From Hericium rajendrae (Eukaryota > Basidiomycota > Agaricomycetes > Russulales > Hericiaceae), in the NCBI GenBank assembly GCA_033439255.1, contig CM065882.1:2542001-2606000 (forward strand): DNA of 64,000 nucleotides. The letters run 5' to 3'. Shown piece by piece: positions 44,936-55,819 of this stretch; position 1 is the first letter of the stretch, and every line of letters starts with the position of its first letter. The notes beneath the pieces are model-generated. The model made no database searches. It had not been told where the DNA came from and saw nothing but the letters and a program-made list of their open reading frames with translations. Position numbers and translations under genes: made by a program.

Positions 44936-47900
44936 CTATGTCAGCAGAGCCAGCAGCTTGTCGCTGTCCATGGACTTGGCCGCTATTCGTGCGCGGCGCT
45001 CCTCGTCCTCGTGCAGGCCGGCCCCCTTCATCATGATCGCAAAGAAGTCCAGTGCCTTCGGTGCGTCGATCGCGACGTCGTCGATGATCTCAGCTAGCGG
45101 GATAAAGCCCTCCTCAAACGCGGCAGGAGTGGCAAGATTCTTCTCGCGAGCACGGGTGAAGAAGTCGGCAACCAGTTGTGCATCGGCCTCCTTCGACTCA
45201 ACAGCCTGCATCGCAAGCTTGTCGACCAGTCGGAATCGGTGCTCCTGTGGCAGAGTGCTGAAGTAGTTCTCGGCCTCATCGAGCGAACGAATGCTGAAGA
45301 ACTCCTTCGTGTCCTCGTCGATCTTCTTGAGGGCGTCCGCCTCTGACATCACCGGGACCTCTCCTCACCAGCCTCCGATGAGGCAGGCTCAGATCCTACA
45401 GCGCTCTCATCCTTCGACTCCACAGGCTTTGACCGTGGCAGCAATTGCAGCTTCCGGCGTTGTTGAGGAGCTTCCGGAACGCCCGCCTGACCCAAGTCGA
45501 CGCTCGGCTTGCGACTAGGCGGCCGACTCGGCTTGCCCTCGACGGGGGCTTCCGCGTGGCCACTGAGCATCGAGAACATATTCGATGTGGACGCCGTGCG
45601 TGAGATGGGTGTCTCCCGACCACTGGGACCGGCCTTAGCCTCCTTCTTGCCAGCGAAGACACTGCTTGGCCCGAATGTCATGGGTGCAGGCTTGCCGATC
45701 TTGCCGAAGTGCGAGAGGTCACCGGCCTTGGGAGGCGGACGAGGAGCAGTACCCGCAACAGCCCAGCCGTCAGGACCGACCTGCTGCTCTCCGCGATCGG
45801 GACCCCGACGAGAGCCACCTCTTGACATGCTTATCTGTCGCTGATATGATTCCCTTTCGGCCGCGGCTTTCTCTTTGGCAGCCTACAAAACGCATTTCGT
45901 CAGAATTAAATAACGATACCGCAATGACTTAAACTTACCGCCTCGTGAATCTGAGCGATCGTCGCTGGCGCAGCCGCTTGGGTGCGAGGAATCCAATTGC
46001 GAGAACGCAATTCAATAACGTCCTAAATATATGATGAGTAACTGATGAATGAAGAGTGTCAGCGACGACATACCTGCAGCATGAACTGCATACGCGAGTT
46101 GACATTGCCAGACTTGCACAATTCCTTCATCCGCGAGAAGTACACATCCATGTGCGCATGTGCCTTCGGAGTGTCCAGGATCGATCCGACGGTGGTGAGG
46201 AGCTTGCACAAACTCTCAATTTCCTCCTCTTCGGGGTTCTCAACGTTGCCGAGCAGTTTCTTGATGCACTCGTGCATGATACGCTCCGTCAGCATCTGCA
46301 GCTTGAACAGCTCGCCGATGAACCGGATCAGACCCAGCCCACGTCGCTTGGCCTTCTGCGCGGCGTAGTACTCATCCGAGTACAGCTCGCCTTCGCCCTC
46401 CTTTTCTTCCTTGCCAGCTGCCGCGGCCTTCGTCGCCTTGTCTTCGGTAGCCTTGGTCAAAGCGGCAGCAGCAGTCGCCTCCTTCTGCACCCAACCACGC
46501 TCGAAGTCCTCTTGGCAACGATTGAGCAGGTACTTCCTGAACAGAAGACCGCCCGCGATCGGCTTGCCCTCCACATTCCGTATCCCGTCGTCCTGCACCT
46601 TCGGACTGATCATCTCCATCATCTTCCGGCACAGGCGCGCATACATCTCGGAAAACGTAGCCTCGTCCGTGGCCTTTTCGAACACGAGTCGGATGACCTG
46701 AATAAGCGTCCGCCCGTCCTTCTCCTTCTCCGACTTGTTCGCCCATTGGATGATCTGGTCCGAGATCGAGTCGAAGCGTTCCATGGTGAGCTTGTTGAGC
46801 AGCGCCTTGACCTTGCGGTCCACGATCTCGGGTGACTCCTGATCCGCAGGTGCAACGCGTTTCGTGCTGGTCGGGACCCAACGATTCGCAGTTGCTTCCA
46901 GCGGCGCAACAGGCTCCAGAGGGGGACCCATCGCCGCGAATGCCTGACCCATGCCCGACGGGTGGCCCATGCTGATACGAGTCGAGTCGGTCCTCTTCTC
47001 CCCGCGCTTACTCCGAGTGCGATCGCGCTCCTTTCCGGGACCGCCCTGGCTGGACGTCCGCACCATGGCAGGTTGGGACGGCCTGCCACCGAGAGCCAGG
47101 CCGCCCATCGATGCCGAACGACCGCTAGTAGATGCCATGGCGAAGCGCTCCTCGCTCGACAGCTTGCTGACTTGCGCGGTAGAGAAATTGCCCATGCCTG
47201 CGAAGGCACCTCCGCCGGCCTTGCTAAGTGATGCAGGAAGGAATCCAAGACCGATGGATGCTTGGCGAGCAGACGGAGGACCAGATATGGGGGTTGGCTT
47301 GCGTCCAGAGCCGCCGCGAACCATACTGAATTGATCGCTGGGCTCGAGACCGATGGCATCGAGAGGTGGGAGGTTGTCCGGCTTCTCCTTGCAGATGCTC
47401 ATGAACTGCATCAGGAAGTCACGGTCGTATCTGAGATTTGTGCATGAGTATAGCACTAGTTAGAATAGAGATGTTGATACTTACCTGAACTTCCCGGCAG
47501 GCGCGTTCACATTAAGCTCCACCTTAGGGCTCTTAATGCCTTCAGGATATTGCACACGACCAAGGTCTTCGATGATGCGGGCGGTAGCGAGGGCGGAGGG
47601 AGGGGGAGGAGCAACGTTGCCAACGATCGCGGAAGTGAGATCCAGACGACCAGGTCGCTTTTTGCCTTCGGATATAGCTGTGTCGATACGCAGGATCTCT
47701 TTTTCTGAGGGTTTGAGCTTCTCGTGGACAGCTTCCTGGACAGGCGCCTTGCGTTCTTCGACCTCGCCCTCCTCCTTCTCCTTCTCAGCAGCGGCTTGGA
47801 CAACAGCAGCCTTCGCCTCTTCAGCGGCGACGGCTTTCTCTTGTTCCTTCTGTTTGTCCTCTTCTGCCTTCTTGGCCTGCTCCTCAGCCTCAAGTTTGGA

Positions 47901-49675
47901 TTTCGCCGCCTCCTCTTTTCGTATCCGCTCCGCCTCCTCTTTCTGCTTCCTCTCCGCCTCCTCCTTCTCTTTGCGCACCCGGGCCTCCTCATCCCTCTTC
48001 TTTCTCTCCTCCTCCTCCTGTTTCTCCTTCGCGACCTGCTCCTCCTTCTCTTTCTTCTGCCGCTCCTCTTGCTCCTTCTTCTCCTGTACTTTTTTCTCCG
48101 CCTCCTCCTTCACTCGCCGCTCCTGCTCCTCCTTCTCTTTCTCTTTCTGCTCCTTCTCCTTCTCCTGAGCCAGCCGCTTCTGCCTCTGCTCCTCAGTCTC
48201 AATCCTTACCGATGACCGCTTTGGCTCCCGCTTCGTCACGGGCGTCGGCGGCGCCGGACTCTGCTGTCTTGTGGGCACATGCCCAGCGCGCCTCAACGCC
48301 TCCAGCGTCGCCTCCTCGCCGGTCGTCGGGTCCTTAATTGAGATCTTCTTTCCCGGCACGAACGTACTGGCGGCCAGGTTCAACCGCCCGGATGCCGAGT
48401 TCGGCGTTGGCGGTGGTGAAGTCAGGCTCGCGGCATGCGTGTGGCCCGGCGTTGGGAGCGGCGCGTGTGCGGGCGTTGGCGTGCCCGGGCCTTGCACAGG
48501 GAGCTGAGGCGGCGCATTGCGCGGCGACATCGGCATTCCACCACCCGGAGGTGGCGGGCCGGGGGGTCCTGAAGGGCCGTGGTGCGGCGGGGGCGGATGT
48601 GGGTGCCCATGCTGCGGAGGAAGGGGTTGTTGCCACCCATAGGGTGAGTGCATGTATTGCTCTGGAGGGACGGGATATCCGTGGTACTATGGGCAAAAAA
48701 GATTAGTAAGGAAAATCAAGCAGATGATGACAACTCGACGCACATAGTATCCTGACCATACGGGAGGAGTTGGCGGAGGCATGCCGGGTGTTTGGCCGGG
48801 ATGGGGAGTGGGATGAGGACCAAGCCGAGGGCTCGACATCGCAGGTGGGATGTTGCCGGGCACGGCGCTCGGACCACCAGGACCAGCTGCTGGCCGCGCA
48901 CCCATACCTGACCCATTTGTCATAGGCCGTGCATACGACGGTGATCGCGGTGGCGGCCCACTAGCATTGCTCCCATTCTGCCCCTGGCCTCGAGGTGTAA
49001 AGGGCTGCCCAGAATATGCTGCAGGAGGCAGGGATGAAGGTCGGCTGGAGGGCGAGGCACTCGCTTCGGCGGACGGTGGTGTCGGTGTCGTTTTGCTCGG
49101 GCCTTGGAATAGTTTTGATACATCAAAGCTTGGTTTTTTAGGAGTGGATGATGGCGCTGGAGATGTCGATGCGGATGGATTAGACGTTGACGACAGTGAA
49201 GATGGTCGTGTGAAGGCGGCTTTGTTTGAGGCACCATTTTGAACAGCAACAGAGCCAAAGGTCTTGACACCGTCTGCCGTTGACTTAACGGCGGGCGCTG
49301 AAGCTGGAGATGAGGATATGGGGGCCGCCGCATCGTCTATGGATCCGAAAGTGACAGCTGAAGAGGAAAATGAGTTATCTGAGGATCCTTACAAACATAG
49401 AGATACGCACCTGATTTAGAGGCACCTGCCGTGCTGCGGGGCACGGGCACGTTTACACCATCCCTGATGGAAACGCCCGAGCCGAGCGCACTGGGACGAC
49501 GGGAGTGAGAACCATGGGAATTCGAAGATGCGTTTGCAACGGTAGCACTGGAAGGAGCGGGGGATTGGGAGCGGGAAGAAGAGGCAGTCGAAGAGATGGG
49601 AGGGCCCCGAGCCCAAGCAGACTGGGTTGGCAGCTGGGAAGTCTTCGGTGCAGATGCTGTAGACGATTTGCTCAT
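44936..49675 (-). CDS. Translation initiation factor eIF4G, full length (copy 1)
   Basis: Scaffold of the cap-binding complex. The N-terminal 500 residues are low complexity (Ser/Pro/Gly rich, with KKPSFDVSKLFQG) and end in a long Glu/Lys/Arg coiled coil (48000-48215). The eIF4E-binding motif YDRDFLMQF lies at 47403-47429. It is followed by MIF4G (VKALLNKLTMERFDSISDQI, KMMEMISPKVQ, FIGELFKLQMLTERIMHE) and a C-terminal MA3 half (FSIRSLDEAENYFSTLP, RLVDKLAMQAVE) that ends at LLALLT. The ATG at 49673-49675 starts MSKSSTASAPKTSQ. A single missing base near 45358-45364 breaks the frame just before the MA3 part; the + strand paralogue is continuous there. The paralogue carries about 110 further C-terminal residues that this copy lacks. 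Confidence 0.95.
45365..45660 (-). repeat. eIF4G segment nearly identical to the + strand paralogue
   Basis: This exon part (coding for RPPSRKPSVDLGQAGVPEAP and flanks) matches 54785-55083 at about 95-98 percent by direct comparison, in inverted orientation, while the MIF4G region of the two genes is clearly more different. Confidence 0.7.
47403..47429 (-). other. eIF4E-binding motif, copy 1
   Basis: YDRDFLMQF fits the YxxxxL-hydrophobic rule for eIF4E binding and follows the NVNAPAGKFR exon end. An intron separates KFR from YDR. Confidence 0.85.
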
Positions 49676-51380: not shown

Positions 51381-51452
51381 CTTCTATCTGTCAATCTGAC
51401 CATCACCTCGCAGCGAGGCGGCGCTTAGCTGCGCAAACATATATAGCTGTCC
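51381..51452 (+). promoter_or_regulatory. Promoter block of the eIF4G-derived mini-gene
   Basis: The block contains CTTCTATCT, TCTGACCATC, GCGCTTAGCTGC and a CATATATAG TATA element at 51439-51447. The same elements in the same order and spacing occur before the N-truncated eIF4G gene (52412-52486). Confidence 0.65.
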
Positions 51453-51542: not shown

Positions 51543-51995
51543 ATGCTCATCGTTGTCGCAGTTGTGGGCTCTACCGGTCGACATTCTAGCACTGATTCCA
51601 TTGATGCCGTCAGCATAGTACTTATGTCGGAATCTATCAGCCACGAGACAGAGACGAACGTCTTCGGGTCCGCCCTGGCCAAAGCACGTCCTATTCACGA
51701 TATGCGAGCCGTGTTATACCCCGAGGGCGTTGAACCTCCCAAAGACCTCGAGGACGCTGCTGTCGGGAAGTTAAAGTACGTGACTCGCGCCATGATATAT
51801 CGCCGTACAGTTGACATGCAGTTCAGGTATGACCGAGGATTCCTCATGCAATTCATGACCGTCTGCAGGGGCAAGCCTGTCAACCTTGCTCCAGTTGAAT
51901 CCCTGGGTTTAGATCCAGCTCATCCACTCCTTCATGTGTCTTCCAAGCCAAAGAAGGAACTTCGGGATCGCAGGGGTCGGATTTTGGCCCATTGA
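51543..51995 (+). CDS. Short eIF4G-derived gene with eIF4E-binding motif
   Basis: Two exons (51543-51775 and 51827-51995, 51-nt GT-AG intron) join to an open frame of 133 codons. The segment ALAKARPIHDMRAVLYPEGV, then VGKLK and YDRGFLMQFMTVCRGKP, corresponds to ALATARIIEDLGRVQYPEGI, GKFR and YDRDFLMQFMSICKEKP of eIF4G. The intron is in the same place and phase. The product keeps the eIF4E-binding motif but ends about 30 residues later, with no MIF4G or MA3 domain. It could therefore compete for eIF4E like a 4E-binding protein. The reading frame is intact and it has its own TATA promoter, which argues against a plain relic, though expression is not shown. An upstream in-frame GTG and AG-GT context leave the exact start uncertain. 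Confidence 0.65.
   Translation: MLIVVAVVGSTGRHSSTDSIDAVSIVLMSESISHETETNVFGSALAKARPIHDMRAVLYPEGVEPPKDLEDAAVGKLKYVTRAMIYRRTVDMQFRYDRGFLMQFMTVCRGKPVNLAPVESLGLDPAHPLLHVSSKPKKELRDRRGRILAH
51828..51854 (+). other. eIF4E-binding motif, copy 3
   Basis: YDRGFLMQF keeps the Tyr, Leu and hydrophobic positions of the motif; Asp-4 of copies 1 and 2 is replaced by Gly. Confidence 0.7.
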
Positions 51996-52411: not shown

Positions 52412-52486
52412 CTTCTATCTTCTCATTGCGTCTGACCATCGTGCAGCCACGACGCAGCGCTTAGTTGCAGAAGCATATATAGTTGT
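52412..52486 (+). promoter_or_regulatory. Promoter block of the N-truncated eIF4G gene
   Basis: CTTCTATCT, TCTGACCATC, GCGCTTAGTTGC and CATATATAG (TATA at 52474-52482) repeat the block at 51381-51452. The TATA lies about 66-74 nt before the ATG at 52548. Confidence 0.65.
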
Positions 52487-52547
52487 CGTCGTCTTGCATG
52501 TAGCTTTTGATCCGTGCAGCATTCGTGTCCACACCAACCAGAGAACA

Positions 52548-55500
52548 ATGAGCGGTACGAATTCATCGGGTCCCTCCCTCAGGTGATATGCAGCTGATTG
52601 CCATCCTATAATCATTAACGTCTGGTTGATTAGTACAAATGTCAAGGCGATCACGGTCTCATCCGGTGTTGTTACTTGTCCAGGGATGCTAGCATACGAT
52701 TTGCTTAGCCCCTCAGGATATGAGACTTTTAATCATATCGATACAGTCATATCCGACAGCGAGATGGAGAGGGAGGCATCCTCCCAGGATGCTACCCAGG
52801 AGAAGCCCAAACCCTCAAACAAGGAGATCCTTCACATCGACGCAGCTATATCCAAAGATACGAAGCAACCTGAAGGTCTGGATGGTACTTCCGCTCCCGC
52901 TCCCGCTCCCTCCGCCCTCGCTACTGCCCGCGTCATCGAAGATCTCGGTTGTGTACAATATCCTGAAGGCATTAACCGCCCCAGGGCGGAGCTCAATGTG
53001 AATGCCCCCGCCGGGAAGTTCAGGTGAAGATTTTTCTCCATTCCAGCTCGTGCTATGTTCATACATAAATTCCAGATACGATCGCGACTTCTTGATGCAG
53101 TTCATGAGCATCTGCAAGGAGAAGCCTGACAACCTCCCTCCTCTCGACGCCATCGGTCTTGTGCCTGGCAATCAGAACTTCAACATGTCTGGCGGCGGCT
53201 CTGGGCGCAGGCAAACTGCTCGACAGACATCCGTTGGTCTTGGATCCCTTCCTGCGTCCCTCAACAGATTCGGGGGAGGCGCTTTCGCAGCCATGGACAA
53301 TTTCTCTACCGAGGAAGTCTGCAAGCTCTCGAGCGAGAAGCGCTTCCCTATGGCATCTGAAAGTCGTTCAGCGTTGATGGGCAGCCTGGCCGACCAGGGC
53401 GGTCCCGGAAAGGAGCGCAATCGCATTCGGAGCAAGTGCGGGGAGAAGAGGAGCGACTCGAGTTTTGCCAGTATGGGCGACCTATCGGGCATATCGAATC
53501 AGGCCATGTCATCGACGGATCTCCCTCTAGAGCCTGTTACGCCGCTGGAGATGTCTGCGAACAGTTGGGTGGCAACGAGCACAAAACGCGCCACGCCTAT
53601 GGATCAGGAGTCGTGCGAGGTCGTGGGCCGCAAGGTCAAGGCGCTACTCAACAAGCTCACCATGAAGCGCTTCGACTCGATCTCGGACCAGATTATCCAG
53701 TGGGCGAACAAGTCGGAGAAGGACGGGCGGACGCTCCTCCATGTCACGGGGCTCATTCTTAAACACGCGACAGACGGCGAGCTTTTTTGCGAGATGTACG
53801 CGCGCCTGTGTCGGAAGATGATGATAATGATCAGCCAGAAGGTGCAGATCGACGGTATCCGGAACTCACAGGGACAGCCAATCACAGGCGGTCTTCTGTT
53901 CAGGAGTTACCTGCTCAGCCGTTGCCAGAAACTCGAGCGTGGTTGGATTGAGAAGGTGGCCACTGCCGTGGCCGCTTTTATCAAGACTGCCGAAGAGCGG
54001 GCCACAAAGGACATGTCAGCAGGTACGGAAGGCAAGGAAGGCGAGGAAGGCGAAGGCGAGCTGTTTTCAGACAAGTACTACGCCGCGCAGAAGGTCAAGC
54101 GACGTGGACTGGCTCTGATCCGGTTCATTGGCGAGCTGTTCAAATTGCAGACGTTTCCGGAGCGTACCATGCACCAGTATATCAGTGAACTCCTTAGCAA
54201 TGTTGATAAGCCCGAGGAGGAGAAGACTGAGAGCTTGTGCAAGTTCCTTACCAGTGTCGGACAGATACTCGATACGCAGAAGGCACATGCGCAAATGGAT
54301 GTGTACTTCTCGCATGTGAAGGAGCTCTTAAAGTCTGGCAATGTCAACTCGCGTATTCAATTCATGCTGCAGGTATACCCTCGCTCATACTCCGCATTCA
54401 TCAGTCACTTATTATATATTCAGAACGTCATTGAGTTGCGTGCGCGCAATTGGGTTCCTTGCAACCAAGCGGCGTCGCCAACGACGACCGCCCAGATTCA
54501 CAAGGCGGTGAGTTTCAGTGTTGCGATAGTGTTCTTTGATTCTGACTAAGTGTATTCTGCAGGCTGTCAAAGAGAAGGCCGCGGCCAAGAGGGAGTCGTA
54601 CCAACGACATATGAGCGTGTCAAGAGGTGGCTCTCGTCGCGGCAGCAATCCTGAAGAGCAGCTGGTCGGTCCTGTCGATTCGACTGTTGCGGCCAGTATT
54701 ACTCGATCGCCTCCCAAGGCCGGTGATCTGTCAAACTTCGGCAAGATCGGCAAGTCTGCACCCATGACATTCGGGCCCAGCAGTGTCTTCGCTGGGAAGA
54801 AGGAGGCCAAGGCCGGTCCCAGTGGTCGGGAGACACCCATCTCGCGCACAGCGTCAACGTCGAACATGTTCTCGATGCTCAGTGGCCACGCGGAAGCCCC
54901 CACCGAGGGCAAGCCGAGTCGGCCGCCTAGTCGCAAGCCGAGCGTCGACTTGGGTCAGGCGGGCGTTCCGGAGGCTCCTCAACAACGCCGGAAGCTGCAG
55001 TTGCTGCCACGGTCAAAGCCTGTGGAGACGAAGGATGACAGCGCTGTAGGATCTGAGCCTGCCTCATCGGAGGCTGGTGAGGAGGAGGCCCCGGTGATGT
55101 CAGAGGCGGACGCCCTGAAGAAGATCGACGAGGACACGAAGACGTTCTTCAGCCTACGTTCACTCGACGAGGCGGAGAACTACTTCAGCACTCTCCCACA
55201 GGAGCACCGATTCCGACTGGTCGACAAGCTTGCGATGCAGGCTGTTGAGTCGAAGGAGGCCGATGCACAACTGGTTGCCGACTTGTTCACGCGTGCACGC
55301 GAGAAGAACCTTGCTACTCCTGCCGCGTTTGAAGAAGGCCTCATGCCGCTGGCTGAGATCATCGACGACGTCGCGATCGACGCACCGAAGGCATTGGACT
55401 TCTTCGCAATCATGATGAAAGGGGCTGGCCTGCACGAGGACGAAGAGTGCCGCGCACGAATAGCGGCCAAGTCCATGGACAGCAACAAGCTCCTTGCTCT

Positions 55501-55819
55501 GTTGGCTGTTGGAGCGCACGTTGGACACGATGTCCAATTCACTAAACAGATCGGGCGGGATGTCAAAGAGTTCTTTGAGCTACGGCTGGTCAGCGAAGCT
55601 GAGACTTACTTCGTTAACCTCCCTCCAATGCACCGCCCGCACCTTGTACGCAAGCTGACAGAGCGGGCCAGGACGTCGTCGTTGGATGCAAGTCTCGTTT
55701 CTAGTCTGTTTCAATCAGTACAGCAGAAAGGCCTCTGCTCCCAGGCGCTGTTCGAATTTGGTATGGGCTTACTCGAGGAGGCCGACATCGTGAACGATGC
55801 TTTTACGCATTTGCAGTGA
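52548..55819 (+). CDS. N-truncated eIF4G paralogue (copy 2) with extended C-terminus
   Basis: Exon 1 (52548-52582, MSGTNSSGPSL) joins exon 2 at 52634 in frame. The product lacks the 500-residue low-complexity and coiled-coil N-terminus. It begins just before the eIF4E-binding part: PSALATARVIEDLG, NVNAPAGKFR and YDRDFLMQF at 53077-53103. MIF4G (VKALLNKLTMKRFDSISDQI to FIGELFKLQTFPERTMHQ) and MA3 (LRSLDEAENYFSTLPQEHR) follow. After LLALLA it continues for about 110 residues (KEFFELRLVSEAETYFVNLP, LVRKLTERARTSSLDASL), a divergent second copy of the MA3 first half that copy 1 lacks. Introns match copy 1 after GKFR, FMLQ and IHKA, so the duplication was made from DNA. The whole frame is open, which suggests selection. 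It resembles short eIF4G or p97-like factors but keeps eIF4E binding. Confidence 0.88.
53077..53103 (+). other. eIF4E-binding motif, copy 2
   Basis: YDRDFLMQF is identical to copy 1 and follows an intron in the same position. Confidence 0.85.
54785..55083 (+). repeat. eIF4G segment nearly identical to the minus-strand copy
   Basis: This is the partner of 45365-45660, in inverted orientation about 9 kb away. Confidence 0.7.

Follow-up and report, generated by a model that had tools for sequence, protein, structure and literature searches.

A Candidate 4E-BP-Like Mini-Gene beside eIF4G in Hericium rajendrae, Possibly an Ancient eIF4G Paralogue Reduced to the eIF4E Clasp

Results and Discussion

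eIF4G and a Second Paralogue Flank the Mini-Gene

The window, i.e., the analysed stretch of 64,000 nt from contig CM065882.1 of H. rajendrae, contains three genes with the eIF4E-binding region of eIF4G1 (Pfam family PF12152). These are a full-length eIF4G gene, a second eIF4G paralogue termed par2, and a mini-gene. When the genome (46.8 Mb, 19 contigs) was searched in six frames, PF12152 matched four times (all 4 candidates were scored; the counts are lower bounds), and all matches are located in these three genes. Their models were predicted from splice-site consensus and homology, not from transcripts.

The eIF4G gene (44936–49675, minus strand) comprises six exons (49675–49411, 49357–48744, 48686–47485, 47430–46074, 46022–45939, and 45882–44936) and encodes a long N-terminus, PF12152, and MIF4G, with MA3 situated in another frame. 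A one-base frame break occurs at 45349–45364 (minus strand) between the last linker and the MA3 domain. Beyond the break the MA3 frame is open and its protein is 92–94% identical to MA3 of par2; the break may represent a real loss or an assembly error.

par2 (52548–55819, plus strand) was modelled with five exons (52548–52554, 52684–53023, 53076–54372, 54424–54507, and 54563–55819), of which the first (7 nt) was derived from splice sites alone, and encodes a protein of 994 aa with PF12152, MIF4G, and MA3. Its N-terminus is short and replaced; the long N-terminal part seen in eIF4G is missing. Similarity of par2 to eIF4G amounts to 88–98% per block from approximately residue 660 on and to 66–78% in the MIF4G part, and this unevenness suggests gene conversion or uneven constraint. 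At 55505–55819, par2 continues for 104 residues past the end of the eIF4G homology at MA3. This extension is absent from eIF4G and resembles a second half MA3 by eye; no Pfam family was found in it.

Structure of the Mini-Gene

The mini-gene is located on the plus strand and consists of exon 1 (51543–51775), an intron of 51 nt (51776–51826, phase 2, GTACGT...TTCAG, GT-AG), and exon 2 (51827–51995), which carries YDRGFLMQF and the stop codon. Translation of the joined exons (51543–51995) yields 133 codons plus stop and thus reproduces the unbroken two-exon frame with this motif that was proposed by the first-pass annotation; likewise, the intron coincides in place with the eIF4G intron 47484–47431, as had been claimed, and also in phase. 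Due to the fact that the intron holds no in-frame stop, the unspliced frame is open as well (150 aa), a point absent from the first-pass annotation, and intron retention would add 17 residues immediately N-terminal to the motif. Compared to eIF4G, neither a stop nor a frameshift is present in the domain, which is interrupted by two one-codon gaps only.

The start codon is uncertain: the ATG at 51543 falls within GTGAGTATG, a good donor site. In case this donor is used, the in-frame ATG at codon 28 would serve as start of a 106-aa protein in which the domain is complete. Residues 1–27 have an intergenic-like codon score and do not look coding, and residues 28–42 have a coding-like score, these stretches comprising only 27 and 15 codons, respectively. 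Hidden MIF4G exons 3' of the mini-gene were not detected by tblastn and DNA comparison with par2. By tblastn, two short matches were obtained, with E 0.013 and E 0.046; they lie on the opposite strand and correspond to N-terminal portions of eIF4G. The downstream DNA aligned to the par2 MIF4G region no better than shuffled sequence (46/100).

Core-Promoter Block Common to the Mini-Gene and par2

A TATA box (CATATATAG, 51438–51446) precedes the mini-gene, in agreement with the promoter postulated previously. It is embedded in a core-promoter block (51381–51451, plus strand) which has a homologous counterpart upstream of par2 (52412–52487, plus strand). Over approximately 71 bases the local alignment score is 49, compared to a maximum of 27 among shuffles (0/300), with 75% identity over 57 nt. 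The remaining upstream, leader, and downstream stretches of both genes are as dissimilar as shuffled sequences, and the mini-gene promoter was not found upstream of eIF4G. A 121-base query matched only itself in the genome, which would speak against a repeat-type promoter, but this search was insensitive because it also missed the par2 copy.

The eIF4E-Binding Domain and Its Motif

PF12152 covers residues 36–95 of the mini-gene product (51.6 bits, E 1e−13; Pfam cut-off 27 bits) and accounts for the previously noticed match to eIF4G over about 60 residues. It is the sole Pfam family of the product among families reported at E up to 1; the lack of MIF4G and MA3 was therefore seen here as well, and neither an RNA-binding domain nor the metazoan 4E-BP family PF05456 nor the yeast p20 family PF17052 (CAF20) was found in the product by Pfam. 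For comparison, the score is 64.4 bits for the 994-aa par2 protein, 68.5 bits for the par2 domain region, and 69.3 bits for that of eIF4G.

Within the 69-residue domain, the mini-gene product is identical to eIF4G at 37 and to par2 at 36 positions. Residues common to all three include Y79, D80, R81, F83, L84, M85, Q86, F87, and the YPEG block. The predicted 4E-binding motif, Y79-DRGF-L84-M85, is of the YxxxxL-hydrophobic type and agrees with YxxxFL-hydrophobic-QF, the pattern seen in the fungal eIF4G peptides of solved structure, 6fbz_B and 1rf8_B. Both PDB chains align at the same residues with E-values that are not significant alone (0.066 and 0.11), whereas eIF4G itself and par2 match 6fbz_B at E 4.7e−6 and 0.00021, respectively. 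Single-sequence AlphaFold modelling of the product was uninformative, with a mean pLDDT of 40 and no feature beyond a low-confidence helix at residues 81–90.

Purifying Selection on the Mini-Gene

In 69 aligned codons, the mini-gene differs from eIF4G at 20, 14, and 42 first, second, and third codon positions, respectively, compared to 6, 2, and 18 for par2 and eIF4G. Neutral evolution of the eIF4G codons was simulated 2000 times up to the observed total of 76 differences; at most 35 residues remained identical (observed 37) and at most 36 third-position differences arose (observed 42). As none of the simulations matched the observed counts, the likeness of mini-gene and eIF4G is not a matter of chance.

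A three-branch codon model gave an omega of approximately 0.05 for the path of the mini-gene (LRT against omega = 1 of 28.2). Since this path takes in the old eIF4G stem, a clock model was fitted to separate the stem, a separation which depends on the clock assumption. The substitution-rate test that the first-pass annotation had asked for, run in this form within one genome, favours a long-constrained protein: omega is estimated at approximately 0.09 for the mini-gene lineage, and a value of 1 is rejected (LRT 20.1). Among 31 completed simulations under the null, none reached an LRT of 20 (maximum 7.8). Neutral evolution as a pseudogene throughout the life of the mini-gene is rejected by these tests together with the 0/2000 simulations. 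The intron serves as internal control, as it has no similarity above shuffles between conserved flanking exons: 165 of 500 shuffles score as well against the par2 intron and 392 of 500 against the eIF4G intron. The introns of par2 and eIF4G are still alike, with 0/500 shuffles as good. Thus, the mini-gene has been under purifying selection for most of its history.

Constraint holds for each exon under the clock model (LRT 8.1 for exon 1 and 11.25 for exon 2). This bears on the possibility that the mini-gene exons represent an alternative 5' end of par2, with exon 1 spliced to the YDRDFLMQF exon at 53076 to give an eIF4G isoform with another N-terminus. Such a splice is permitted by homology and by the phase 2 donor, which is in frame, and the common core-promoter block would be compatible with it. 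However, an intron of 1.3 kb would be needed, whereas 8 of the 9 modelled introns of eIF4G and par2 measure 51–57 nt and the longest 129 nt, and the constraint on exon 2 with its own stop codon would be left unexplained. We regard this arrangement as improbable.

A recently dead gene has to be weighed more seriously, i.e., a decayed stump, with a frame open by chance, of an ancient eIF4G paralogue that was once functional. Synonymous codon usage would fit, since it has equilibrated to the intergenic level: the synonymous score per codon is −0.146 in the mini-gene domain, +0.117 (sd 0.105) in the eIF4G genes, and −0.088 (sd 0.064) in intergenic sequence. Once amino-acid make-up is included, as in the full codon score, the value is intermediate (0.033 compared to 0.400 and −0.258, respectively). 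A neutral end phase of 0.5, 0.75, 1.0, and 1.5 substitutions per codon costs 1.0, 2.2, 3.8, and 8.1 log units, respectively, computed with the other parameters fixed, so that up to approximately 0.75 substitutions per codon are tolerated; in addition, nothing homologous to the MIF4G region of par2 was detected 3' of the mini-gene. On the other hand, the domain is free of stops and frameshifts relative to eIF4G, its GT-AG sites and motif are intact, and the longer the assumed neutral time, the lower the likelihood and the fewer the simulated frames that stay open by chance (26% at 0.2 and 16% at 0.3 substitutions per site, in simulations of substitutions alone). Typical marks of a pseudogene are lacking: the frame is open, the intron is kept, and omega = 1 is rejected for the lineage. 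Taken together, recent death of the gene appears unlikely, though it deserves to be kept in mind. The intergenic-like synonymous usage and the intermediate full score reveal no eIF4G-like codon bias, and for this reason the mini-gene is hardly a strongly expressed gene; its codon choice fits a weakly expressed or a dying one.

Age and Origin

All pairs involving the mini-gene have a dS beyond saturation (2.0–2.3 by NG86 and 4.6–5.3 by ML, without a value from LWL85 and YN00), whereas dS of par2 and eIF4G is 0.44–0.57 by four methods. A recent tandem copy of par2 is rejected because synonymous sites and intron are saturated between mini-gene and par2 and not between par2 and eIF4G. Rejected as well is a recent broken copy, given that synonymous sites and intron are saturated and that 37 of 69 domain residues have nevertheless stayed identical to eIF4G. 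By these distances, the mini-gene is placed as a branch older than the split of par2 and eIF4G (dS ~0.5).

The first-pass annotation had explained the mini-gene by local duplication of eIF4G. Homology and local origin stand, but the history reaches further back and is less simple than a lone duplication, as the mini-gene predates the par2/eIF4G split and its core promoter is common to par2. With 25% divergence over 57 bases, the promoter block would more readily be dated to the origin of par2 than to that of the mini-gene. Hence, par2 may have originated when a duplicated eIF4G body came to lie under a duplicate of the mini-gene promoter; alternatively, strong constraint on the promoter accounts for the likeness. 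For the mini-gene itself, an ancient, inverted, and truncated paralogue of the neighbouring eIF4G that was retained for its eIF4E-binding domain alone is an origin to which we assign an even chance. Relatives of the three aligned domains were confirmed neither among 328 pattern matches in genome_contigs, a collection poor in fungi, nor among 124 in viral_contigs, a poor place for fungi.

Proposed Function

Fungal eIF4G wraps eIF4E with its eIF4E-binding domain, and MIF4G forms the side of eIF4G that binds eIF4A and eIF3. Of these parts, the mini-gene product (133 or 106 aa) would carry the whole fungal eIF4E clasp, consisting of an upstream PI.D...YPEGV.PP segment and the YxxxxL-hydrophobic helix, and would sit on the dorsal face of eIF4E. 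With eIF4E occupied in this way, eIF4G would be excluded and neither eIF4A nor eIF3 brought along, as expected from general knowledge of the pathway; lacking MIF4G and MA3, the product would thus block or divert eIF4F assembly like a 4E-BP. Expression, splicing, eIF4E binding, and repression are predicted here from sequence. Of the domains of eIF4G, PF12152 is present and MIF4G and MA3 are missing; of the features of 4E-BPs, the product has the YxxxxL-hydrophobic motif and no eIF4A/eIF3-binding scaffold. The interpretation as an ancient eIF4G paralogue reduced to the eIF4E clasp and acting like a 4E-BP stands, in our estimate, at the balance point between right and wrong, and a role as a brake on translation may reasonably be proposed.

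It is tempting to speculate further that the core promoter of an eIF4G-derived 4E-BP repressor was later given to an N-truncated eIF4G, resulting in a co-expressed switch of brake and scaffold beside the main eIF4G, but this scenario is doubtful. The common promoter block is compatible with a non-repressing eIF4E-binding protein that, perhaps in concert with par2, protects or accompanies eIF4E or gives preference to certain mRNAs. For yeast p20, mRNA-selective or stabilising uses of a peptide bound to eIF4E have been reported. The sequence offers nothing that separates such a protein from a competitor, and Pfam detects no RNA-binding domain. The review PMC7139794 describes that yeast p20 in complex with eIF4E stimulates translation in vitro. 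We consider a non-repressing role quite unlikely.

Comparison to Known eIF4E-Binding Proteins

The mini-gene is homologous to eIF4G over the whole eIF4E-binding domain, with the same intron place and phase, and differs in its length of 133 aa and the lack of MIF4G, MA3, and the long N-terminus. Metazoan 4E-BP, yeast p20/Caf20, and Eap1 resemble the product in being small and in having a YxxxxL-hydrophobic motif without scaffold domains. Beyond the motif, these proteins are not known to resemble eIF4G, whereas the mini-gene is by descent an eIF4G paralogue in which the larger clasp is preserved. DAP5/p97 and Paip1 are partial eIF4G paralogues that act as regulators. They retain the MIF4G part without an eIF4E site, and the mini-gene thus corresponds to the opposite half of eIF4G. 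In the review PMC7139794, p20 is described as having no homology to the 4E-BPs of higher organisms apart from the motif, p20 and metazoan 4E-BPs are treated as convergent, and p20 and Eap1 are confined to Saccharomycotina. Yeast possesses two eIF4G paralogues with different roles (PMC10484682).

Given the limitation of p20 and Eap1 to Saccharomycotina stated in that review, the mini-gene adjoining eIF4G is one candidate for the restraint of eIF4E in other fungi. If the proposed function holds true, the brake descended from eIF4G itself by a direct route on which the grip was kept and the scaffold dropped. An eIF4G-derived 4E-BP in fungi was not described in the titles and abstract openings among the matches listed from the open literature, outside of which most subscription papers lie, and no open-literature paper was found on eIF4G and eIF4E binding in Basidiomycota.

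eIF4E Partners and Other Searches of the Genome

In the genome, searches with PF05456 and PF17052 (CAF20) gave one match to the former, on a different contig and below threshold (14.7 bits; the cut-off is 24), and no match to the latter. As the control genomes, 14 in case of PF05456, were equally silent, these searches do not prove absence of the two families from the genome.

Three eIF4E-family genes are present, represented by five match rows of which three are exons of one gene. The expected tryptophan of the dorsal pocket, which we take to play the role of human W73, is kept in 2 of the 3 genes (VEEFW on C1 and VESFW on C4); in the third gene (C9:378562–378981), the tryptophan of VExFW is replaced by cysteine (VESFC). 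W73 is among the conserved tryptophans in a fungal eIF4E survey, and basidiomycete species have 1–5 eIF4E paralogues each (PMC11791286).

Apart from these, fungal-type peroxidases (PF11895) occur in the genome with eight match rows, two neighbouring ones of which look like one gene. Together with the short introns and the fungal eIF4G1 domains, they point to a probable wood-decay agaricomycete. The best match of a 77-aa exon of one peroxidase gene among solved structures is to versatile peroxidases.
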